Assembly: GCA_947594085.1 (NCBI GenBank)
Contig: CANQEB010000025.1
Span: forward strand, 1 to 16,174
Length of the DNA stretch: 16,174 nucleotides
Origin: an uncultured Lachnospiraceae bacterium
GTDB taxonomy: Bacteria; Bacillota; Clostridia; Lachnospirales; Lachnospiraceae
Direction of reading: 5' to 3'
Shown here: piece after piece, positions 103-16,174 of the stretch
Layout: each line of letters begins with the position of its first letter
How positions within the stretch are numbered: position 1 is the first letter of the stretch
Program-made: the position numbers and the translations under genes
The notes under the pieces: generated by a model
The model's input: the letters and a program-made list of their open reading frames with translations, nothing else
The model's database searches: none
What the model was told of the DNA's origin: nothing

Positions 103-915
103 TTACAACACATCCGCGAAGTGCACTCTGAGCCGCCGAAATACCCACGTCCCGAGCAGGAACGCCCCAATCGTGAAACCCCAGAAGTAGAGCGTCCACA
201 GCGGTCGCTCCCAGAACCATTTCTTGTAGATGAATGCGTCGCGGTAGCCCGCGACGATATAGTAAACCGGATTTAACTTGAGAATCTTCAGGATTATCGG
301 ATGCTCCGCCAACATGGTATCCGCAATCCACATGATCGGCGTCATCCAGATACCGACCTGCAGCGCGATATTGATAATCTGAGCGAGATCCCTGAAAAAT
401 ACGACAACCGCACTCGTAGCGTAGCACAATCCGAGCGTCAGCAAGAAAAGTCCCGCTGTATAATAAAAAAGCTGGAGATAGTACAGATCTGGAAAATGTC
501 CATAGAAACAGTACAAAAGTGCAATAAAAAATACAAAAAACAAATGGACAAACAGCGCTGAGATCATTTTCACAATCGGGAGTACGCTGATATTGAACAC
601 CACTTTCTTGACCAGGTAGCTGTACTCGATCAATGTGTTGGTGCCTCCATTCAGCGCATCCTGGAAAAAGAACCAAGGCACAATGCCTGCCACCAGATAT
701 AGCACAAACGGCACCGGGAGCGCACCCTGATCCGCCCGAAAGCCCACCTGGAATACAAACCAATACACCAGCACCGTCACAATTGGCTGAATGAATGCCC
801 AGATGATTCCCAGGTAAGAGCCTGCAAACTTTTTTCGGAAGTCATTTTTTGCCAGTTTGTAAATCATTCTCCGACTCTGATAGATCTGCACCGGCAATGA
901 GTTCTCTTTCTTCAT
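103..915 (-). CDS. polysaccharide ABC transporter permease, Wzm/TagG type (ABC2 family)
   Basis: A 270-residue integral membrane protein of the ABC-2 family that exports lipid-linked polysaccharides (O-antigen, teichoic acid or capsule-like chains) across the cytoplasmic membrane with a separate ATPase. The N-terminus is an amphipathic basic segment (MIYKLAKNDFRKKFAGSYLG), typical of TagG/Wzm permeases. About six hydrophobic segments follow, with the family-like FFRDLAQI and TPIMW stretches in the second half and an LNPVYYIV..YRD region near the C-terminus. I chose ATG at 915 over the TTG at 921 because the AGGGAG ribosome site lies 8 nt from the ATG but only 2 nt from the TTG. It starts 15 nt after rmlC ends, so it belongs to the rml operon; its cargo is therefore probably a rhamnose-containing glycan. 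The partner ATPase is not in the window. Confidence 0.9.
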   Translation of the reverse strand: MKKENSLPVQIYQSRRMIYKLAKNDFRKKFAGSYLGIIWAFIQPIVTVLVYWFVFQVGFRADQGALPVPFVLYLVAGIVPWFFFQDALNGGTNTLIEYSYLVKKVVFNISVLPIVKMISALFVHLFFVFFIALLYCFYGHFPDLYYLQLFYYTAGLFLLTLGLCYATSAVVVFFRDLAQIINIALQVGIWMTPIMWIADTMLAEHPIILKILKLNPVYYIVAGYRDAFIYKKWFWERPLWTLYFWGFTIGAFLLGTWVFRRLRVHFADVL

Positions 916-930
916 ACACAAAGCTCCCTG

Positions 931-1509
931 TCAGGACTTTTCTCCCTGTATTCCATGCTCTTTCATATGCGCACGCAAGCTGCCCCAGTTTTTGTCCTGT
1001 TCCTTCATAATCAGCTCCATTCCATCCGGAATCGGCCACTTAACCCCAATGTCCGGATCATCATAGCGGATGCCGCCTTCATCGTTTGGATGATAGAAGT
1101 CCGTACACTTGTAGGTAAATTCTGCATAATCAGAGAGCACAAGGAACCCGTGCGCAAAATTCTTTGGAATGAAGAACTGCTTTTTGTTCTCTGCGGACAG
1201 GAGTACTCCATGCCACTGTCCATAGGTTTTCGAACCCTTGCGAAGATCCACAGCAACATCAAACACCTCTCCCGAAACGACCCGCACGAGCTTGTCCTGC
1301 GGATAGTTGATCTGGAAATGCAACCCACGCAACACGCCCTTTCTGGACGCAGACTGGTTGTCTTGCACAAAAACCTGATCGATCCCGGCCTCCTTGAAAT
1401 CATTGTAGTTGTAGGTCTCCATAAAGTAACCTCTGTCATCTCCAAACACTGCCGGAGTGATGATTTTCAAGCCCTCAATCGCGCATGTTTCCACTGTTAT
1501 CTTGCCCAT
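931..1509 (-). CDS. rmlC: dTDP-4-dehydrorhamnose 3,5-epimerase
   Basis: Cytosolic cupin-fold epimerase that converts dTDP-4-keto-6-deoxy-D-glucose to dTDP-4-keto-L-rhamnose, the third step of dTDP-L-rhamnose synthesis. The 192-residue protein is of normal length. The family signature DDRGYF is at residues 24-29, the catalytic-base motif RGLHFQ at 61-66 (His64), and the AHGF motif at 119-122. Tyr133 in the FTYKC segment corresponds to the catalytic tyrosine. A ribosome site (AAGGAA) lies 9 nt before the ATG. It sits 137 nt after rmlA and 15 nt before the ABC permease, continuing the same minus-strand operon. The fourth enzyme, RmlD, is not seen and must be encoded elsewhere if rhamnose is the final product. 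Function is near certain. Confidence 0.97.
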   Translation of the reverse strand: MGKITVETCAIEGLKIITPAVFGDDRGYFMETYNYNDFKEAGIDQVFVQDNQSASRKGVLRGLHFQINYPQDKLVRVVSGEVFDVAVDLRKGSKTYGQWHGVLLSAENKKQFFIPKNFAHGFLVLSDYAEFTYKCTDFYHPNDEGGIRYDDPDIGVKWPIPDGMELIMKEQDKNWGSLRAHMKEHGIQGEKS

Positions 1510-1531
1510 ATTCTCTGATTCCTTTCCTCAT

Positions 1532-1609
1532 TTATCGGATCCTGTCTTTCATCCACAGCTTTTCATCGATTCCGCCCTTTATGTTTCCGGCTCCATTTCC
1601 TAAACTCAT
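1532..1609 (-). CDS. possible 25-residue small ORF between rmlA and rmlC
   Basis: In the 137-nt gap between rmlA and rmlC the minus strand has an ATG at 1609 followed by 25 codons, beginning MSLGNGAGNIKGG, and a TAA at 1534-1532. An AGAGGA sequence lies 5 nt before the ATG, which is a reasonable ribosome site. The predicted peptide is glycine-rich and then charged, with no membrane segment or recognised motif. It could be a real small protein, a leader that couples translation into rmlC, or a remnant of a lost gene. With only 25 codons an open frame is easily reached by chance, so I rate it low. Confidence 0.2.
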   Translation of the reverse strand: MSLGNGAGNIKGGIDEKLWMKDRIR

Positions 1610-1646
1610 CTATGTCCTCTGGCTCTATCGCGCGGCTCCTTTTTGA

Positions 1647-2516
1647 TCAAAGGCCGTCCGCAACCTCGATCATATATTTCCCATAAGCAGTCTTCAGAAG
1701 CGGCTGTGCCAGCGCGATCAGCTGCTCCTTGTTGATAAAGCCTCTCTTGTACGCAATTTCCTCGATGCAGGAAATGTATAATCCTTGCCGTTTTTGGAAC
1801 GCCGCCACGAAGTCAGATGCATCCAGCAGAGAATCATGACTGCCCGTGTCGAGCCATGCAAAGCCGCGCCCCATTGTCTCCACGTGAAGCTGTCCGCGGC
1901 GCAGGTATTCCATATTCACACTTGTGATCTCAATCTCTCCGCGCGCCGAGGGTTTGACATTTTTCGCGATATCCACGACACTGTTGTCATAAAAGTACAG
2001 TCCCGGCACCGCGTAGTTAGACTTTGGATGCTCAGGTTTCTCCTCGATGGAGATGGCCTTTCCCTCCTCGTCGAACTCGACGACACCGTACTCTCGCGGA
2101 TCACGCACATAGTAGCCGAAGATCGTCGCGCCCTTCTCCCGGGAAGCCACGTCCAGAAGTAGCTTCGAGAAGCTCTGCCCGTAGAAGATATTGTCTCCGA
2201 GCACAAGCGCCACGCGGTCGCTCCCGATAAACTCTTCGCCGATCAGGAAAGCATCCGCCAGTCCGCGCGGAGTCTCCTGTATTGCATAGGATAGCTTCAG
2301 CCCCAGCTGTTCTCCCGTCCCCAAAAGCTCCTGAAAAACAGGTAGATCCCTCGGTGTCGAAATAATCAGAATCTCACGGATGCCAGCCAGCATCAGTGTC
2401 GACAGCGGATAGTAGATCATCGGCTTGTCGTAGACCGGAAGGATCTGTTTGGATACCGCCTTCGTCAGCGGGTAAAGCCTCGTGCCGGCACCGCCGGCCA
2501 GTATGATTCCCTTCAT
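1647..2516 (-). CDS. rmlA: glucose-1-phosphate thymidylyltransferase
   Basis: Cytosolic nucleotidyltransferase that makes dTDP-glucose from glucose-1-phosphate and dTTP, the first committed step to dTDP-rhamnose. The 289-residue length is usual for the short RmlA type. The nucleotide-binding signature [11 protein letters not shown] is at residues 8-18, followed by [12 protein letters not shown] at 22-33. The metal-binding [10 protein letters not shown] is at 104-113 (Asp108). SIEEKP is at 156-161, and the second metal-site region [11 protein letters not shown] is at 221-231. AAGGAG lies 6 nt before the ATG. It follows rmlB by 90 nt in the same orientation; the leader between them contains a short CAGAC/GTCTG inverted repeat but no terminator-like T run. 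Nothing is missing or broken. Confidence 0.98.
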
Positions 2517-2606
2517 CGTATACTCCTTATCGATTCACGTACAGACTCCCGTCTGAAATTTTTCTTATCACGCTTTCGGCAGTCTGCCTTTTCTGCTCCG
2601 GACATT

Positions 2607-3686
2607 TTATTTCTGATACATTTCTTCGTAATATTTCTGGTAATCCCCACTCGTCACGTTCTTCATCCACTCCTCGTTCTCAAAGAACCAGCGGATCGTC
2701 TTGCGGATGCCTTCCTCAAACATCGTCTCCGGCTCCCAGCCGACCTCGGCGCGGATCTTGTCCGGAGCGATCGCATAGCGGCGGTCATGCCCCTTGCGGT
2801 CCGCCACGTAAGTGATCAGCTTCTCGCTCACCAGAGCTTTTCGTGGATCGTCCGGCGGAAGCATCTCCTGCAGCGTGTCGAGAATGATATGTATGATCTG
2901 GATATTCTGCTTCTCGTTGTGTCCGCCGATGTTGTATGTCTCGAACAAGCGGCCCTTCTCCTGCACCATATCAATGCCCTTCGCGTGGTCTTCCACGTAC
3001 AGCCAGTCGCGCACATTCTTGCCGTCTCCGTAGACCGGGAGCTCCTTCCCGTGCAACGCATTGTTGATGATCAGCGGGATCAGCTTCTCCGGGAACTGAT
3101 ACGGGCCGTAGTTGTTGCTGCAATTCGTGATGTTCGCCGGGAAATGATAAGTGTCCATGTAGGCCTTCACCAGCATGTCCGAAGACGCCTTGCTCGCCGA
3201 GTACGGGCTGTGCGGAGCATAGGGTGTCGTTTCATAGAAGTACTCGCCCTCCTTCTCCAGCGAACCGTATACTTCATCTGTCGAGACGTGCAGGAACTTC
3301 TTGTCCGGCTTAAACGTACCGTCCGGCAGCTCCCAGGCCGCCTTCGCCGCGTTCAGCATCACGAGCGTGCCCAGCACGTTTGTTTTCACAAAGACCTCCG
3401 GATCACGAATGCTGCGATCCACATGGCTCTCCGCCGCGAAATGCACGACACGGTCGATATCGTTCTCCTCAAAGATCTTATTGATTGCTGCAGAGTCGCA
3501 GATGTCCGCGCGGATAAACGTATAGTTCTCCCTGTTCTCGATATCCTTCAAATTCTCAAGATTGCCCGCATAGGTCAGCTTATCCACGTTAATGATGCGG
3601 ATGCTGTCACCGTATTTGCGGAACATATAGTGAATGTAATTAGAGCCGATAAAGCCGGCCCCGCCTGTGACGAGGTAGGTTCTCAT
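2607..3686 (-). CDS. rmlB: dTDP-glucose 4,6-dehydratase
   Basis: NAD-dependent extended short-chain dehydratase that converts dTDP-glucose to dTDP-4-keto-6-deoxyglucose, the second step of dTDP-rhamnose synthesis and a branch point to other deoxysugars. The 359-residue protein starts with the Rossmann motif TGGAGFIG at 7-14. The catalytic triad region STDEVYG spans 135-141 (Thr136, Asp137, Glu138) and the YSASK motif gives Tyr162 and Lys166. The substrate-binding NNYGPYQFPEKLIP segment is intact. GGAGG lies 6 nt before the ATG. It is the first gene of the rml operon, preceded by a clear sigma-A promoter and a leader of about 35 nt. Genes run rmlB, rmlA, rmlC here, with rmlD absent. Confidence 0.98.
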   Translation of the reverse strand: MRTYLVTGGAGFIGSNYIHYMFRKYGDSIRIINVDKLTYAGNLENLKDIENRENYTFIRADICDSAAINKIFEENDIDRVVHFAAESHVDRSIRDPEVFVKTNVLGTLVMLNAAKAAWELPDGTFKPDKKFLHVSTDEVYGSLEKEGEYFYETTPYAPHSPYSASKASSDMLVKAYMDTYHFPANITNCSNNYGPYQFPEKLIPLIINNALHGKELPVYGDGKNVRDWLYVEDHAKGIDMVQEKGRLFETYNIGGHNEKQNIQIIHIILDTLQEMLPPDDPRKALVSEKLITYVADRKGHDRRYAIAPDKIRAEVGWEPETMFEEGIRKTIRWFFENEEWMKNVTSGDYQKYYEEMYQK

Positions 3687-9665: not shown

Positions 9666-10424
9666 TCACAATTCCTTGAAATTGCGGGCCCCTCCGTCAA
9701 CCCGAAGGATCTGTCCACTGATATAAGACGCCTGTTCCGAGGCCAAATAGTATACCGCGTCCGCAATCTCCTCCGGCTCCGCAAAGCGTCTCAGACCGCC
9801 CGCACTTCCCTTGGCAGGTTTGTCCTCCCTTTGCTCCTTGAATATCTCCGCCATCTCTGTATTCACAAATCCAGGCGCGACCGCATTCACTCTTATCCCA
9901 TAAAGTGCTGCCTCATCTGCCAGAGTCCTCGTAAAAGCGGCTACCGCCGCCTTAGAAACCCCATAAGCGCACATTCCCCTGTTCAAATCCAGTCCGCCGA
10001 CAGAGGAAATATTGACAATACTTCCGGCCTTTTTTCGAAGCATAAGCTTCAGAACCCACTGAGTCAATTCCATCATCGCAAACAGATTGACATCAAACAC
10101 CTCCCGTATCGTCTGCATTTCCGTCAGTTGGAATAGATTCTGATGCATAATGCCAGCATTGTTGACCAGCACATCAATTTTTGCCTTGTTGCGAATCAGC
10201 TCCCGCATCTTCTCTTCCATCGCCGTCGAATCCGTCAAATCGAAGCACACCGACACGACATCTGTATCATACTCTACCCTGAGACGCGCAAGCTTCTCTT
10301 CAAACGCTTCCGTATGTTTTCTCGCATGCGCATACACACAGTATCCCTCACGCGCAAATTTCTCCAAAATCTTTTCGCCGATTCCCCTGTTACAGCCGGT
10401 AATAAGGGCCCACTTTTTCTCCAT
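9666..10424 (-). CDS. SDR family oxidoreductase, FabG-like
   Basis: A 252-residue classical short-chain dehydrogenase/reductase, cytosolic and NAD(P)H-dependent. The cofactor motif TGCNRGIG is at 9-16, NNAG at 88-91, the catalytic serine in NISS at about 141, and YGVSK gives Tyr154 and Lys158. The C-terminal SGQILRVDGG motif is typical of FabG-like 3-oxoacyl-ACP reductases. It starts 2 nt after the SGNH gene, with GGGAG 9 nt before the ATG, and is the last gene of the acyl-carrier operon. In that setting a role in reducing (or oxidising) an ACP-bound keto/hydroxy acyl group is plausible, but FabG-like SDRs act on many substrates, including sugars. I see no terminator between it and the hydrolase gene promoter. 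Confidence 0.92.
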   Translation of the reverse strand: MEKKWALITGCNRGIGEKILEKFAREGYCVYAHARKHTEAFEEKLARLRVEYDTDVVSVCFDLTDSTAMEEKMRELIRNKAKIDVLVNNAGIMHQNLFQLTEMQTIREVFDVNLFAMMELTQWVLKLMLRKKAGSIVNISSVGGLDLNRGMCAYGVSKAAVAAFTRTLADEAALYGIRVNAVAPGFVNTEMAEIFKEQREDKPAKGSAGGLRRFAEPEEIADAVYYLASEQASYISGQILRVDGGARNFKEL

Positions 10425-10426
10425 GT

Positions 10427-11506
10427 TCAGCTCTCCCTCTTCGTTTCCAACAGTTCAAGAATACCCGCCTTGACTTCGTCTGCCTCCTGCTTCCACACCT
10501 CATAGTCACGGTCCCACTGCGCATATTTCTCCTGTCCACGCTTATCCTCAAACGAATAATGCTCCATCAGATAATTTCCGACAAATTCCGTATACTTGTC
10601 TGCCCCGAAAACATTGACATGACTCCTGTCATAGAAATCTGTCTCGGGATCAAGCCCAATCTCTTCAAAATAATCGTTCGTATTCAGGAAATCATAACCA
10701 TATTTCTCGAGCACCTGCGAAATATAATTGTACATTTTCTTTTCTGCCCTCGTCTGGCAATATGCGTTGACGAGAAACAGCGGTTGCAGCCCTTCGTCCT
10801 TGCAGTAATCAAGCAGATCGTACAATATCTTATCCAGACGCTCCGACATCTGCACGCCCTTTTTAACCTTGGAAAAATCTTTATATCTGACTGGCGCTAC
10901 GTCTACATTCAGGCGAAACCCCTTCAGACTGTCATGGCTGGAATTCAGTCCAAACTTCAGAGACTGCAGATCCAGCAATCGGTACCATTCCGTGTGATAT
11001 TTGATGATATCAATATAATACGGAATTTTGTCATACTCATCCGGCACACACTCTTGAATCATCTGGAAGCGGTTCAGGGAATACTTAAAATTATCACACA
11101 CATTTCGCAGAGGTACATCGTGATCCATGCTCATGACACTCTTGTCCAGATAATAGCCTTCCTCCGCGGCGGCAAAGGGACGCAGGTCGATTACATACAG
11201 CTTGGGCGACTGTGTTTTCCGTATCTCCTTCAGGCAATACTTTAGCATCTGAGGCGGCATCGTCCCCGTGGCAAAGTCATAGGAGGTGAAGCCATACTTC
11301 TTCCATGCTTCAGGAGCTTCCCAGTACGCGAAGCAGGAGCTCGCCCCAACAAACACAACGTCCAGCGATTGATCCTCCTCGGCATAAAATCCACACAGAT
11401 TCTTGCGGCTCGCGCTTCCACTGTATGGCCGAAGAATATAGGAAACCACCACCAGCGCAACGAGAAAACCTGCCGAAAACAATACTGCCTTCCATAGATT
11501 TTTCAT
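10427..11506 (-). CDS. SGNH hydrolase-like membrane protein, partner of the MBOAT acyltransferase
   Basis: A 359-residue protein with one N-terminal membrane segment (about 6-25, LFSAGFLVALVVVSYIL) and an extracytoplasmic SGNH/GDSL-like domain. The VFVGASS motif at 51-57 is the block I position, with Ser56 as likely nucleophile, and DRSH at 293-296 supplies the Asp/His pair (Asp293, His296) in the pattern DxxH. This layout matches DltD and AlgJ/AlgX-type proteins that finish O-acylation of extracellular polymers using acyl groups moved by an MBOAT protein. It starts 2 nt after the MBOAT stop, and its ribosome site (GGAGG, 9 nt upstream) lies within the MBOAT end, so the two are translationally coupled. 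Assignment to the fold is good; the acceptor polymer is unknown. Confidence 0.83.
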   Translation of the reverse strand: MKNLWKAVLFSAGFLVALVVVSYILRPYSGSASRKNLCGFYAEEDQSLDVVFVGASSCFAYWEAPEAWKKYGFTSYDFATGTMPPQMLKYCLKEIRKTQSPKLYVIDLRPFAAAEEGYYLDKSVMSMDHDVPLRNVCDNFKYSLNRFQMIQECVPDEYDKIPYYIDIIKYHTEWYRLLDLQSLKFGLNSSHDSLKGFRLNVDVAPVRYKDFSKVKKGVQMSERLDKILYDLLDYCKDEGLQPLFLVNAYCQTRAEKKMYNYISQVLEKYGYDFLNTNDYFEEIGLDPETDFYDRSHVNVFGADKYTEFVGNYLMEHYSFEDKRGQEKYAQWDRDYEVWKQEADEVKAGILELLETKRES

Positions 11507-11508
11507 CG

Positions 11509-13059
11509 CTAAAATCCTCCGTATATGAACTGGGCAGCATCATACTCCGGCCCATACATTCCAAAAAGAATCACAAAGAACAAAAGGAAATAGAGAATCG
11601 CCCATCTCACCACGATATTGCGTGAGGCAAGCCACTCATAGACAGAATGTCCCTTGGCCTGGAACACAAACAAAACAGCTAAGACTGCCATTCCGAGCGT
11701 AACTGAAATTCCAGATTTCAAAAAATCATAAAAGTCCAGAGGCGCAAGAAATGTCCGCAGTTGTCCGATAAAAACTCCCGGCATAAAGCTGGCTGGCATC
11801 AGACAAGCCTTCACATAGTGCACTGCCCTTCCGACCGTAGACGCGCGAAAAAACAGAACACCGACGGCATATATGACCGCTGTTCTGGCGCTCTGAAAAC
11901 CGTGCCACCACTTTCCTTCAGAATCTATATGGAAAAACGCTTTCCATTTTTTGAACAAATTGTCCAGAAGCTGCCCTACAATGATCACAGCCCCGAACCA
12001 GATTCCTTCCGCGACAAAATGCCATGCTCCGCCATGCCAAAGTCCCATATAAAACCAGAGAATCATCATCGCCAGATACGTGGGTACGCTTTTTGAGACT
12101 TTCTTGCCCAGACTAGCCTTAAGGCTTTTCGTCATTTTCTTCCAGAGCTTTGAGCGAAGGATCGGATACATAATATAATCCTGAAGCCACTGCCCCAACG
12201 TGATATGCCACCGCTTCCAGAATTCCTGAATACTTCTCGAGTGAAACGGCCGATCAAAATTTTCAGGCAGATAGACGCCAAAACACTCCGAAGCGCCCAG
12301 AACAATATCCATACAACCCGAGAAATCCATGTAGAGCTGTATCACATAGACTGCAAGCCCAATGCAGAGGAATAAGCCGCTGTAGTTTGCGCTCTCATCA
12401 AATATATCGTTCGCATAAACCGCAATATTTTCTGCCACCACCAGTTTCTTTATCAAGCCAATCAAAATTCTCTGAAGGCCAAAGCAAACTCTCTGATACT
12501 CAAATTTGTGTGGCGCATACAGCTGATCCTCCAGCTGGTGATAGCGGCTGATTGGCCCGGAAATCATCTGTGGAAAATAGCATACAAACAGAGCCGTCTT
12601 CCATATACTCTTCTGTGGCTTCGACGTTCCCCAGTAGACATCGACAAGATAGCCGACCGCCTGAAGCGTGTAGAAACTAACTCCAAGAGACGCGACAAAA
12701 TTTACCATCTTTATGCTTTGTCCTCCCCCAAAGATTCCACAGACCATCTTTGCGCTGGAGAGAAAGAAATTCGAATATTTCAAAACTACCAAAGGGGCAA
12801 GCGCTACGATAAGACATACGATCAATACAGCCTTTGCCTTTCCGGAATTGCCTCGGATTCTGTCGATATAATTGCTGCCGGCCCATATCGCCGCCACTGT
12901 GAGAAATAAGTAGACCGCGGTCCACGGTGTTCCAGCCAGCGCATAAAACGAAAGGCTGATCGCAAGCAGCATCACCCACTGACATTTTCCGGGAATGATA
13001 TAGTAGACTGTCAGACTGACTGCCAAAAAAACAAAGAACCAAAAAGAAACCAAAGACAT
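11509..13059 (-). CDS. MBOAT family O-acyltransferase (DltB/AlgI type)
   Basis: A 516-residue polytopic membrane protein of the membrane-bound O-acyltransferase family. About eleven hydrophobic segments are visible. Family motifs are intact: QLYMDFSGCMDI at 241-252, EFWKRWHITLGQWLQDYIMYP at about 279-299 with His285, and GLWHGGAWHF at 339-348 with the catalytic His342. DltB/AlgI-type members take an activated acyl group in the cytoplasm, from an acyl carrier protein in the DltB case, and pass it across the membrane for attachment to a surface polymer. That fits the dedicated ACP gene two positions upstream and the SGNH gene directly downstream. It starts 13 nt after the MaoC gene. No D-alanyl ligase (dltA) is present, so the acyl group is probably not D-alanine. 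Confidence 0.94.
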   Translation of the reverse strand: MSLVSFWFFVFLAVSLTVYYIIPGKCQWVMLLAISLSFYALAGTPWTAVYLFLTVAAIWAGSNYIDRIRGNSGKAKAVLIVCLIVALAPLVVLKYSNFFLSSAKMVCGIFGGGQSIKMVNFVASLGVSFYTLQAVGYLVDVYWGTSKPQKSIWKTALFVCYFPQMISGPISRYHQLEDQLYAPHKFEYQRVCFGLQRILIGLIKKLVVAENIAVYANDIFDESANYSGLFLCIGLAVYVIQLYMDFSGCMDIVLGASECFGVYLPENFDRPFHSRSIQEFWKRWHITLGQWLQDYIMYPILRSKLWKKMTKSLKASLGKKVSKSVPTYLAMMILWFYMGLWHGGAWHFVAEGIWFGAVIIVGQLLDNLFKKWKAFFHIDSEGKWWHGFQSARTAVIYAVGVLFFRASTVGRAVHYVKACLMPASFMPGVFIGQLRTFLAPLDFYDFLKSGISVTLGMAVLAVLFVFQAKGHSVYEWLASRNIVVRWAILYFLLFFVILFGMYGPEYDAAQFIYGGF

Positions 13060-13072
13060 CGTTCTTTTCCTT

Positions 13073-13504
13073 TCATTTCTCTTCTGTCGCGCTCAAAAAG
13101 CCGACCCGCATCTCCCCGCGGCAGACCTTCTCATTGTTCTGATTTCTGATGACCACCTTCAGCGTGATCGTCCGAAATGTGTCGTTTTTCTTCTGAACCT
13201 TTCCGGTCACCGTGAGGTGATCCCCTGCGTATACCGGATGCGGAAACTCAGCCTCCACCGTATGGATCAGACTGTTCTCACCGGGAAGGTATGTTCCGGC
13301 CAAAGTCGAAAGAAGGGATGCCGTAAGCATCCCATATGTAACCCGCGTATGATAACCCATTCGGTTCGCAAAGTCCGCATCACGGTGTAGCGGATTCTCG
13401 TCTCCCGTGATTCGGTAAAAATACTCCATTTTATCCTCTGTAATATCGGTCTCGAAGCTCTCTTCCATCCCGACGGATAATTCTTCATACGTATAATGGT
13501 TCAT
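13073..13504 (-). CDS. MaoC-like (R)-specific hydratase/dehydratase
   Basis: A 143-residue single hot-dog-fold protein of the MaoC family, which interconverts (R)-3-hydroxyacyl and trans-2-enoyl thioesters on CoA or ACP. The hydratase motif GDENPLHRDADFA at 34-46 is complete, with catalytic Asp35 and His40, and the GxxTASL region (GMLTASLLS, 58-66) follows as usual. It overlaps the ACP gene by 4 nt (ATGA), and GAGGAG inside the ACP gene lies 5 nt before its ATG. That tight coupling suggests that the substrate is an acyl group on this ACP. With the SDR at the end of the operon it could form a reduce/dehydrate pair, yet no enoyl reductase or ketosynthase is visible. Confidence 0.92.
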   Translation of the reverse strand: MNHYTYEELSVGMEESFETDITEDKMEYFYRITGDENPLHRDADFANRMGYHTRVTYGMLTASLLSTLAGTYLPGENSLIHTVEAEFPHPVYAGDHLTVTGKVQKKNDTFRTITLKVVIRNQNNEKVCRGEMRVGFLSATEEK

Positions 13505-13740
13505 ATCTGCTCCTCGATAATGTCAAGCATCTCCCCTACGTTTTTCATGCCCAGAACATCTTTCATCGCAAATGTGAATCCGAACTCGTCCTCCACCTCA
13601 GAAATCAGTGTGATATGCGTCAGCGAATCCCAATCCTCGATATCCGCTGCTGTTGTCTCCTCCGTGACAACAATCGACTCATCATCGAACACATCCCAGA
13701 ATATCTCATTTACCTTCTTCAGAATTTCTTCTCTGCTCAT
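13501..13740 (-). CDS. free-standing acyl carrier protein
   Basis: A 79-residue acyl carrier protein, a small acidic four-helix carrier. The phosphopantetheine attachment motif DWDSLTHI places the modified serine at Ser39. The last helix (VGEMLDIIEEQI) is as expected. It needs a phosphopantetheinyl transferase, which is not in the window. AAGGAG lies 7 nt before the ATG. It begins 14 nt after the FkbH gene and overlaps the MaoC gene by 4 nt, so this is a pathway-specific carrier rather than the housekeeping AcpP, which normally sits with fatty acid synthesis genes. The DWDSL form and the neighbours point to a carrier loaded by FkbH with a glyceryl or similar short unit. Confidence 0.95.
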   Translation of the reverse strand: MSREEILKKVNEIFWDVFDDESIVVTEETTAADIEDWDSLTHITLISEVEDEFGFTFAMKDVLGMKNVGEMLDIIEEQI

Positions 13741-13754
13741 AGCTGTTCTCCTTC

Positions 13755-15488
13755 CTATTGTTCAGAACCTACAATGAACGTCCTGTTGCGGACAAACTGC
13801 TCCACATCTGCCTCAAAACGCCCTTCGCCCAAATTCCGAAAACCAAGCTTCTCATAAATGTCCTTTACCATAGCATTTTTGGGCGTTTGAATATATTCTC
13901 CGACTACTCTTTTATACCCTTCTTTCCTTGCTGTGTCAATCACTTTATTGATGATGAATTCTTCCATTCCACGCTTGAGAACACGGCAACTCATCAGCCA
14001 ATTGTACATAAAGAGCGTGTCAGAATCTGTCTTCTCCAGGATCACGACACTGATCAGACCGTGATCGCCAAAGTCGTCCCGCAAGGTGAAATAAAATGTG
14101 ATAAAGCGGTCATCCTCCGCCATGCGCTCGATTTCCGCCTCCGTACAGCGCACCGTCCGCAGATTGAACTGGTTTGAGCGCTGTGTCAGCTGCGCGATCC
14201 GCGGAAATTGGAATCGGTCAAACGGTTTCACCTCGGCCACCATATTTAGGCTCTGCAAGTACTCATCGTAGTTCTGGTACTGCTGCCTGCTGATCGTGCG
14301 CTTCGCCTCCGCCTGATACTGCTGTGTCCGGTCCTTGTCGGACTCGCTGCTTGACGCTGTTTCAAACAGATTCAAGGCGCGCAAATGGCTCAGATACTGT
14401 GCGGGATCCTCCGGCAGCTCCGGCACTGTAATATCTGGAATAGCACGTCGCACCTGCTCCCGCTCAAAAGGATTATCGTCAAGAAACACGATACTGTCCA
14501 TTCCGATGTTGAGCGTTTCCTGGATAAATCGGATGTTGGAAGCCTTGTCCTCCCAATTCGCCACGAACATCGAGAAATCATCGAGGCGCAGGACCATCTC
14601 AGGATGTTTCAGGAACGGCTCCTTCGCCGTATTTTCGTCATTCTTACTGCAAACCGCGAGCACAATTCCCCGGTTTTTCAATTCCTTAAGCCAGATTTGG
14701 AACTCTTCAAACGCGTGTCCAAGACCAAGCTCACCGATCTGGATCCCTTCCAGGCCATCGTCCCCGATCACGCCGCCCCAGAGCGTATTGTCCAAATCCG
14801 TAATGACACACTTGCGAATCGCCCCGGAGACTGCCTTCACGATATCTGTGACCTGCTTTGCCACCTCCGGCAGAACCGCAGTCGACAGTGGCATTTTAGC
14901 AATGTAATACAGCTTGTCGTCATACGCGATCTCCCTGCCGCATTGCAGTTGAATCCCATTCAGATCCATGAAAAAGACGTTTTTGATCTCCTGCGCCCCA
15001 TCCATGAGCAGGCAGTTCAACCGCTTCACCTGATAAAGGAAAGAAGCTTTTGTCTTCGCGGCATAGTTGCCATATATGCGGTCATCAAACTCAACAAACA
15101 AAAACTGAATAATGCTGCAGGATAGCTGCTGTCTGTTCACCAGATCCCAGTAGGAGCGTATCTTTTGATAGATTTTGTCCGCAAAGCCTGTCTTGTCTTC
15201 CGTCTCGGCAAACGTATGGTAAAGCTTCTCAGAGCACATATAGATCAGGGCAAACTGTGCCCCGAATTGGCAGAATTCGGAGCTTGGATCCAGAAGCTGG
15301 GCGTCGATCTGATTGTAATCCGCATCATAGATTTTGAATGCCATGTTCTCTTCGACCCCATAGCCCTGAATAGCTGTCGCAAGGTGCTGTGTTGCGCAGT
15401 CTCCCAAGACTGCCAACCGATACTCACGGCACCCTGTCATATCTGTCTTGCAGTTTTTTTTCAGCTTTGTAAATGTAATCCCGGTCAT
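13755..15488 (-). CDS. FkbH-like protein: HAD (subfamily IIIC) glyceryl transferase/phosphatase with GNAT-like C-terminus
   Basis: A 577-residue full-length FkbH homologue. Characterised FkbH proteins take D-1,3-bisphosphoglycerate, remove phosphate and load a glyceryl group onto an acyl carrier protein, for example for methoxymalonyl-ACP or tetronates. The N-terminal region (about 20-200) is SGNH-like with LGDCATQHL at 28-36; the serine position is cysteine (Cys31). The HAD domain has DLDNTLWGG at 231-239 (Asp231, Asp233), SKNDE at 281-285, Lys315 in WEDKASN and FLDDNPFEREQVR at 336-348. A GNAT-like domain (about 440-560) ends with a YEKLGF motif. I kept the ATG at 15488; an internal ATG 16 codons later has no better ribosome site. 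It lies 35 nt after the transketolase gene and 14 nt before the ACP gene. Confidence 0.94.
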   Translation of the reverse strand: MTGITFTKLKKNCKTDMTGCREYRLAVLGDCATQHLATAIQGYGVEENMAFKIYDADYNQIDAQLLDPSSEFCQFGAQFALIYMCSEKLYHTFAETEDKTGFADKIYQKIRSYWDLVNRQQLSCSIIQFLFVEFDDRIYGNYAAKTKASFLYQVKRLNCLLMDGAQEIKNVFFMDLNGIQLQCGREIAYDDKLYYIAKMPLSTAVLPEVAKQVTDIVKAVSGAIRKCVITDLDNTLWGGVIGDDGLEGIQIGELGLGHAFEEFQIWLKELKNRGIVLAVCSKNDENTAKEPFLKHPEMVLRLDDFSMFVANWEDKASNIRFIQETLNIGMDSIVFLDDNPFEREQVRRAIPDITVPELPEDPAQYLSHLRALNLFETASSSESDKDRTQQYQAEAKRTISRQQYQNYDEYLQSLNMVAEVKPFDRFQFPRIAQLTQRSNQFNLRTVRCTEAEIERMAEDDRFITFYFTLRDDFGDHGLISVVILEKTDSDTLFMYNWLMSCRVLKRGMEEFIINKVIDTARKEGYKRVVGEYIQTPKNAMVKDIYEKLGFRNLGEGRFEADVEQFVRNRTFIVGSEQ

Positions 15489-15523
15489 TTTCCAAACATC
15501 CTGTTCCCTTTTCTGGTTTCGCC

Positions 15524-16174
15524 TCAGGAATTATCTTCCCCAAGATAATCCATGATCTGGCGAGCGATTCCGCAGGCGTCCAAACCATTCGCCGCCTTCA
15601 CCTGGTCATGCGTGCCATATCCTTTCGCAAAGCAATTCTGAAGGCCGATCCGTCTAAGCCGAACCCCCGCGCCAACCTCAGAAAGTGCTTCCGCGATCGC
15701 ACTTCCCAGCCCACCAGTGACACTGTGCTCTTCCACAGAGAAAAGCACTGGATATCTCCTGGCAAGCGCAAGCACATTCTCTGTGTCAAACGGCACGATC
15801 GTCGGTACATTGACCACCGCCAAGTCTACTCCTTGCCCCGAGAGCAACTCCACAGCCGAAAGAACCTCCGATACGATACTTCCCGTCGCAAAAATACAGG
15901 CATCAGCACCCTCTCTGAGCACATACTGTTTTCCTGTCACAAACTCATAGTCATTCAAGTAGACATCCGGCTCGTTGTTCATTCCGATCTTGATGTACAC
16001 CGGTCCCTGGATCTCATACGCAGCCCAAATCGCCTTCTCCACCTCCCGCGGGCAGGCCGGCGAAAAAATCGTGAGGTTTGGCAGGCTCCGCAGCGCGCCC
16101 AAATCTTCCGTCGTGTGATGTGTCACGCCCAGCGTGCTCCAGGAAAGTCCCGCTCCCATGCCAACGATTTTCAC
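15524..16174 (-). CDS. transketolase C-terminal subunit (pyrimidine-binding and C-terminal domains), 5' end cut
   Basis: The last 216 residues of a split transketolase-like protein; the frame is still open at the window edge and the first methionine there is internal. Visible features are the WSTLGVTHHTTEDLGALRSLPN segment of the pyrimidine-binding domain, then FSPACPREV and GPVYIKIG, and a C-terminal domain with VEEHSVTGGLGSAIAE. Split transketolases transfer two-carbon ketol groups with thiamine diphosphate; they also serve secondary pathways, where a ketose-derived C2 unit ends up on a carrier protein. An N-terminal subunit should lie just outside the window. Its position 35 nt before the FkbH gene suggests that it feeds the same carrier-protein pathway, but supply of a sugar precursor is also possible. 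Confidence 0.93.
   Translation of the reverse strand: MKIVGMGAGLSWSTLGVTHHTTEDLGALRSLPNLTIFSPACPREVEKAIWAAYEIQGPVYIKIGMNNEPDVYLNDYEFVTGKQYVLREGADACIFATGSIVSEVLSAVELLSGQGVDLAVVNVPTIVPFDTENVLALARRYPVLFSVEEHSVTGGLGSAIAEALSEVGAGVRLRRIGLQNCFAKGYGTHDQVKAANGLDACGIARQIMDYLGEDNS

Follow-up and report, generated by a model that had tools for sequence, protein, structure and literature searches.

Why should one bacterial operon encode a transketolase-like enzyme, an FkbH-like protein, an acyl carrier protein (ACP), and a MaoC-type enzyme next to a membrane-bound O-acyltransferase (MBOAT), an SGNH-family protein, and a short-chain dehydrogenase/reductase (SDR)? Such an operon is found in contig CANQEB010000025.1 (assembly GCA_947594085.1) of an uncultured Lachnospiraceae bacterium; the window analyzed here is the whole of this contig (C25 of the home genome), 16,174 nucleotides in length. 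The answer proposed here, with a probability of about two in three, is that these genes make up a surface acylation operon of Dlt-like design, with FkbH at the place of DltA, and that a three-carbon (C3) acyl-ACP, loaded by FkbH, is tailored and exported to a glycan. An earlier note on this DNA had suggested a dedicated acyl-ACP operon that ends in a surface-transfer pair, a view that the conserved gene set described below supports.

Calling of open reading frames (ORFs) confirmed the seven same-strand genes of that note, with their coordinates and their gaps of 35, 14, −4, 13, 2, and 2 nt. The family labels hold as well, the SGNH label with the help of residue conservation and fold, since this protein has no match in Pfam or NCBIfam. 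Listed from the operon-side end of the window, the genes are as follows.

15524-16174 (cut at the window end), minus strand: 3′ part of the gene for the C-terminal subunit (TKC) of a split transketolase-like thiamine diphosphate (ThDP) enzyme (PF02780/PF02779)
13755-15488, minus strand: FkbH-like HAD-IIIC protein, predicted glyceryl loader for the ACP (TIGR01686, FkbH_N)
13501-13740, minus strand: dedicated ACP with a DSL serine (PF00550, PP-binding)
13073-13504, minus strand: MaoC-type hydratase/dehydratase (PF01575)
11509-13059, minus strand: DltB-like MBOAT with the C-terminal acyl-shuttle motif FIYGGF (DltB structure matches, motif)
10427-11506, minus strand: SGNH acyltransferase with a probable N-terminal membrane anchor (conserved residues, model, fold)
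9666-10424, minus strand: FabG-like SDR (family match, motifs)

The count of seven is correct for the window and one short for the operon. The gene for the N-terminal transketolase subunit (TKN) of the home genome is located at C274:2046-2894, and after it the contig carries the initial 118 codons of TKC. Contig C274, at its end, and the window, on its operon side, overlap by 77 exact bases, and the operon is therefore counted as eight genes, TKN-TKC-FkbH-ACP-MaoC-MBOAT-SGNH-SDR.

This arrangement can be regarded as more than chance because the same gene order recurs in four other genomes; with the home genome, it appears conserved in five, one of them named as belonging to another phylum. The genome collection was scanned with the tighter of two MaoC alignments (A2; A1 was too diverse), and the best 80 of 451 loci were kept; no MaoC was called at one of them, L169, so that 79 MaoC loci were used for counting. 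TKC lies within the stretch read at 6 of these best 80 of 451 loci. Two Lachnospiraceae metagenome-assembled genomes (MAGs), L112 and L113, have all eight genes in identical order, with 79-80% identity to the window in FkbH and 63-64% in MBOAT. A MAG named Verrucomicrobiota (L116) and a Clostridia MAG (L127) have the first seven genes in the same order, with 60-61% identity in FkbH and 42-43% in MBOAT, and an aldo/keto reductase (AKR) replaces the SDR in both (PF00248 in L116, by resemblance in L127). Gene joints, measured in four loci, range from −32 to 110 nt. In a phylogenetic tree, the MBOATs of L112, L113, L116, and L127 form one clade with that of the window (support, 100/98). In genome G163, contig C30 (L092) ends with FkbH and the start of TKN, and contig C157 (L072) begins inside TKN and continues with TKC-MaoC-ACP-SDR-MBOAT. 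The synteny check proposed in the earlier note has thus come out in its favor, with reshuffling in G163.

A similar picture was obtained from the protein database, which lists at least 1275 TKC homologues at E ≤ 1e-75. Between the top-120 homologue lists, longest-contig sizes were shared in 11 cases for FkbH/TKC, 9 for SGNH/TKC, and 7 for SGNH/FkbH (one of these seven values being the window itself), and shifted controls gave 0-2 each (n = 14).

In L116, the operon stretch (L116:6291-14018) has a G+C content of about 0.38-0.45, compared to 0.54-0.58 in the preceding 6 kb, and is followed by a gene resembling a transposase remnant; the stretch may have been transferred into a lineage of Verrucomicrobiota, or the MAG contig may be chimeric.

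The export half of the operon can be identified from its motifs, conserved residues, and fold as an MBOAT/SGNH acyl-shuttle pair. Against the DltB model TIGR04091, the MBOAT scores 172.6 bits, below the cut-off of 375; it matches the DltB structures 8jem and 6bug and retains the conserved His residues (RWH and GLWHG) in the 8jem alignment. The very C terminus of the protein reads FIYGGF, which fits FXYXXF, the known C-terminal hexapeptide of MBOATs in MBOAT-SGNH systems (available text of PMC12148441). The same FxYxxF pattern terminates 50 of the 59 distinct MBOATs encoded no more than 5 kb from FkbH or MaoC. No relative of the window MBOAT was found in a scan of viral contigs. Two FkbH-ACP loci encode short, motif-less MBOATs beside ORFs of 45 and 42 amino acids (L044:7427-7564 and L045:7315-7443, both on the minus strand) that end in ILYQGF and VLYQSF, respectively; these microproteins look DltX-like, and such loci would resemble the Dlt set except that FkbH replaces DltA.

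The partner protein was assigned to the SGNH group by less direct means. Ser56 and His296, probably the catalytic residues, are invariant, and Asp290 is nearly so, in 71 sequences. The structural model (pLDDT, 96.9) shows an SGNH fold when compared with known structures, with DltD, PatB, and many SGNH hydrolases tied in Z score. Foldseek gave no match to this model at E ≤ 0.001, and a profile search of the PDB sequences found no convincing relative (best E value of 0.052, a designed protein). By analogy with MBOAT/SGNH transfer, acyl-Tyr and acyl-Ser intermediates can be predicted. An ordinary acetyl-CoA-dependent MBOAT pair was considered and rejected on account of the linkage to ACP and FkbH.

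The loading half consists of FkbH and the ACP. Glyceryl loading has been proven in vitro for other members of the FkbH family. The window FkbH scores 316 bits against TIGR01686 (cut-off, 146.65) and 211.6 bits against FkbH_N, and contains the HAD motif DLDNTLWGG, which is present in 79 of 83 FkbH-like ORFs longer than 500 amino acids (repeats not removed). An FkbH domain with the HAD motif and an adjacent ACP, the two marks of a glyceryl-ACP module, are both found here, and the combination of an FkbH-like protein with a stand-alone ACP has been assigned to glyceryl-ACP formation, described as likely, in polyketide pathways (available text of PMC7489565). In MaoC, Asp35, Asn37, and His40 are invariant in 19 of 19 aligned sequences. 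The SDR retains the TGxxxGxG, NNAG, and YxxxK motifs; its identity to the usual SDR of FkbH-ACP-MaoC loci is only 22-25%.

The combination of FkbH, ACP, and MBOAT is common in Lachnospiraceae. FkbH was detected in 63 of 299 genomes of this family, including the home genome, at E ≤ 1e-20. The neighborhood survey covered 51 loci (77 matches in the family search), of which 38 had flanks of 5 kb or more in both directions; on the same strand and within 5 kb of FkbH, these 38 encode ACP in 35 cases, MBOAT in 24, SGNH in 13, a VOC-family protein in 9, and MaoC in 8, the last count being biased upwards by loci that were fetched via their MaoC. After removal of the seven MaoC-fetched loci with full flanks, a recount by eye gave 28, 23, and 12 of 31 for ACP, MBOAT, and SGNH, respectively. 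All neighbor labels come from BLAST against an in-house query set that misses remote SGNH or SDR genes.

Same-strand companions of the 79 MaoC loci (from the best 80 of 451) include FkbH at 33, MBOAT at 26, and the cassette SDR at 30. Genes of the AAC(3)-like or DUF4910 type are present at 34 of the 79, never together with MBOAT (0 of 79), which can be read as one kind of acyl-ACP that has either a membrane exporter or a cytosolic acyltransferase as its outlet. In L115, L133, L150, and other loci, AAC(3)-like and/or DUF4910 genes accompany ACP and MaoC, and a Sir2-like gene often comes next; such loci perhaps represent the cytosolic alternative. Acetivibrio ethanolgignens (L167), a culturable relative, carries FkbH-ACP-MaoC-SDR-MBOAT-SGNH. 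VOC/glyoxalase genes are located near FkbH-ACP in L035, L042, L049, L099, L101 (PF13669), L104, L105, L106, and L111, and their products are perhaps epimerases acting at the α-carbon of acyl-ACP. In genome G097, FkbH is split into two ORFs (L043:1269-3004, plus strand), being either broken or frameshifted in the assembly.

The most unusual member of the operon is the transketolase. Its sequences were compared with three ordinary split transketolases of relatives and with solved enzymes; residue numbers and roles are presumed to follow the E. coli and yeast transketolase literature. Wherever readable, the catalytic equivalents are retained, Glu411 and His473 in the C subunit and His26, His66, and His261 in the N subunit. 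Relative to the ordinary split enzymes, the operon-type proteins carry the replacements R358Q, H461G, D469L, R520M (Ile in L072), and H100E, and the differences at positions 461, 469, and 520 hold also with respect to the solved split enzyme and human transketolase. Among 119 TKC homologues (the best 120 of 1275, minus P0128, a protein of fusion length), Arg358 is replaced by Gln in 116 (with 3 gaps), His461 by Gly in all 119, Asp469 by Leu in all 119, and Arg520 by Met in 118 and by Leu in one. The position of Ser385 varies in the three ordinary split enzymes too and is uninformative. Compared with transketolase proper (EC 2.2.1.1), the catalytic Glu and His residues are present, and the sugar-phosphate-binding Arg and His residues and the donor-contacting His are absent. 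These changes in the pocket led to the rejection of a housekeeping transketolase; the operon protein probably retains ThDP-dependent activity but no longer shows the usual sugar-phosphate binding. Because its sugar-phosphate-binding residues have been exchanged, the earlier suggestion that it offers a two-carbon (C2) unit is weakened, and C2-unit supply is unproven.

The best other match to the window TKC in the family search, with 48% identity, is encoded in genome G016 (L073:9821-11562, minus strand). In this protein, the equivalents of His461, Asp469, and Arg520 are changed, and those of Arg358 and His100 are retained; sugar-nucleotide-like and radical-SAM-like genes are its neighbors.

From these data, a sequence of reactions can be proposed, including substrates, step order, product, and acceptor. 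Judging from its family, FkbH would load D-glyceryl from the glycolytic intermediate 1,3-bisphosphoglycerate onto the ACP, yielding D-glyceryl-S-ACP, and MaoC, the transketolase-like enzyme, and the SDR (or AKR) would tailor the acyl group while it remains bound to the ACP. Where the transketolase is lacking, glyceryl could be converted via pyruvyl-ACP to lactyl by the action of MaoC and the cassette SDR. At loci of the transketolase type, a C2 unit might be added either to pyruvyl-ACP or to an aldehyde formed by C3 oxidation of glyceryl-ACP, a reaction that has been proposed as the initial oxidation of the methoxymalonyl route (available text of PMC7489565), after which the SDR or AKR would reduce one carbonyl to give a polyhydroxy-acyl group. 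This order of C2 addition on the ACP and subsequent reduction is favored, if only tentatively. Equally tentative is the corollary that a transketolase-derived ThDP enzyme forms a carbon-carbon bond on an ACP-bound, glyceryl-derived acyl group (e.g., 2-hydroxy-3-oxopropionyl-ACP or pyruvyl-ACP), so that a C5 sugar-acid-like acyl would be exported by a Dlt-like machine with no ketosynthase. The MBOAT would then move the acyl group from the ACP to the Tyr residue of its C-terminal FIYGGF, which would pass it to the Ser residue of the SGNH protein, and the latter would esterify an extracytoplasmic glycan that is encoded elsewhere.

The explanation that competes best with this scheme, though it is unlikely, is that the exported group is a plain C3 unit, either glyceryl itself or lactyl formed through MaoC dehydration to enolpyruvyl/pyruvyl-ACP and SDR reduction, and that the transketolase serves elsewhere, for example, in making a sugar of the acceptor glycan. 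A bryostatin-like scheme of lactyl loading is no more than a lead in this direction, for which no supporting paper was found in the open-access literature. MaoC is indeed more commonly accompanied by the cassette SDR in the absence of a transketolase (30 of 79 MaoC loci with this SDR, compared to 6 of 79 with TKC, among the best 80 of 451), FkbH-ACP-MBOAT without MaoC is also common, and the sugar-nucleotide- and radical-SAM-like surroundings of L073 would suit a role of such enzymes in sugar metabolism. However, five genomes, including the home genome, have the transketolase pair inside the operon, and the pair adjoins MaoC in G163, L189, and L191 (only TKC being in view in the last).

Less probable still is that the ACP carries a group of the 3-hydroxybutyryl type, which would arise from an ordinary short acyl thioester through hydration by MaoC or a FabG-type reduction, FkbH playing a side role. 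The MaoC profile has as its best matches a 3-hydroxyacyl-thioester dehydratase and (R)-specific enoyl-CoA hydratases, the SDR is FabG-like, and 46 of the 79 MaoC loci (from the best 80 of 451) have no same-strand FkbH within the stretch read; against this, FkbH and ACP are found in 5 of 5 complete transketolase-type operons, and neither a ketosynthase nor a ligase was seen among the operon genes.

Finally, the absence of any joint pathway, with a housekeeping transketolase and stray fatty-acid genes beside an ordinary O-acetylation MBOAT/SGNH pair, is hardly credible: the home genome does encode six other MBOATs, four of them adjoining a gene with an SGNH match, with no FkbH or ACP match nearby in the stretches read, but synteny, with the gene order shared by five genomes across nominal phyla, largely refutes this explanation, and the gene joints given above and the remodeled transketolase also speak against it.

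Several observations weigh against the proposal of an FkbH-fed, Dlt-like acylation operon. Even a loose form of the shuttle motif is missing in 7 of the 59 MBOATs mentioned above, and MaoC and FabG-like SDRs are also ordinary enzymes of acyl metabolism. The transketolase-type operon is rare in the sampled genomes; a class-wide search for this transketolase clade among 391 genomes of the class returned the home genome only, at E ≤ 1e-78. In G163, the set appears reshuffled over two contig ends whose joining is presumed, and SGNH is not in view. L189 (AKR-TKN-TKC-MaoC) and L191 (MBOAT-SGNH-AKR-TKC-MaoC, with the AKR assigned by resemblance) combine TKC and MaoC with no FkbH or ACP in view, both at contig ends. 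In L116 and L127, the N subunit has GNG instead of the GDG cofactor motif, which makes enzyme activity in these two loci less sure. Lastly, the operon includes no glycosyltransferase or polymer gene.

As for the acceptor, region 103-3686 of the window (minus strand) encodes a Wzm-like permease (56.8 bits, below the family cut-off) and proteins read by eye as RmlC, RmlA, and RmlB, and perhaps specifies an ABC-exported, rhamnose-containing polysaccharide. Because of these Wzm-like and Rml-like genes on the contig and a GT2 gene that follows the L112 operon, one may guess, but no more than guess, that the acceptor is a surface glycan that contains rhamnose or bears side chains. Upstream of the operon, C274 carries a 324-amino-acid gene read as phosphofructokinase and a 309-amino-acid gene read as rRNA methylase-like, both from sequence alone.

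Among the characterized systems, Dlt (DltABCDX) is close in plan: it likewise has a carrier protein beside an MBOAT/SGNH pair in an operon without polymer genes. The operon described here differs in that FkbH stands in for DltA, the shuttle motif is part of the MBOAT itself and not of a separate DltX microprotein (except in L044 and L045), and tailoring enzymes are added. No DltA-type D-alanine ligase is found among the operon ORFs, and a strict dlt operon was rejected on this ground; in the home genome, whose assembly is 71% complete, the best DltA match, on C65, reaches 302.7 bits, under the cut-off of 559.85. On that contig (L205, G000:C65:1-6612), three ORFs match the DltA model below cut-off and are accompanied by an ACP-like ORF. 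PatA/PatB-type O-acetyltransferases share the C-terminal FxYxxF on the MBOAT and an SGNH partner with a catalytic Ser; according to the available text of PMC12148441, PatA uses acetyl-CoA and such MBOAT-SGNH systems have no carrier protein, unlike the window pair with its adjacent dedicated ACP and FkbH. The glycerate modules of polyketide clusters have the same FkbH-like protein and stand-alone ACP (available text of PMC7489565), but in the window no polyketide synthase or FabH-like protein was seen, and the module is tied to membrane acyl transfer. With no ketosynthase seen in the operon, a polyketide cluster was rejected, and the earlier statement that the locus is neither a polyketide cluster nor a dlt operon stands. 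Rif15 of rifamycin biosynthesis is likewise a two-subunit transketolase outside central metabolism and a precedent for an unusual acceptor, rifamycin S; its donors, as given in the available text of PMC6002545, include sugar phosphates, the very compounds for which the window enzyme has its binding residues replaced.

The claim that no described system has this gene set needs to be narrowed. Its core, a shuttle pair beside a carrier protein, is that of Dlt, and FkbH-ACP-MBOAT is common; on the other hand, no description of an FkbH-fed MBOAT system was found in the open-access literature, which does not prove that there is none. The new element is a variant of the MBOAT/SGNH acyl shuttle in which FkbH and ACP replace DltA/DltC or acetyl-CoA.

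With a C-terminal Tyr motif, a separate ACP, and soluble tailoring enzymes, each step of the proposed route is testable in vitro, and the altered transketolase stands out as a new target for enzymology. If the proposal is true, Dlt would be one case of a broader class of systems that supply an MBOAT/SGNH shuttle from a carrier protein and have exchangeable loaders, such as FkbH for DltA. The surface glycans of Lachnospiraceae would then bear many unrecognized hydroxy-acyl decorations, which could matter for interactions with phages, hosts, and antimicrobials.

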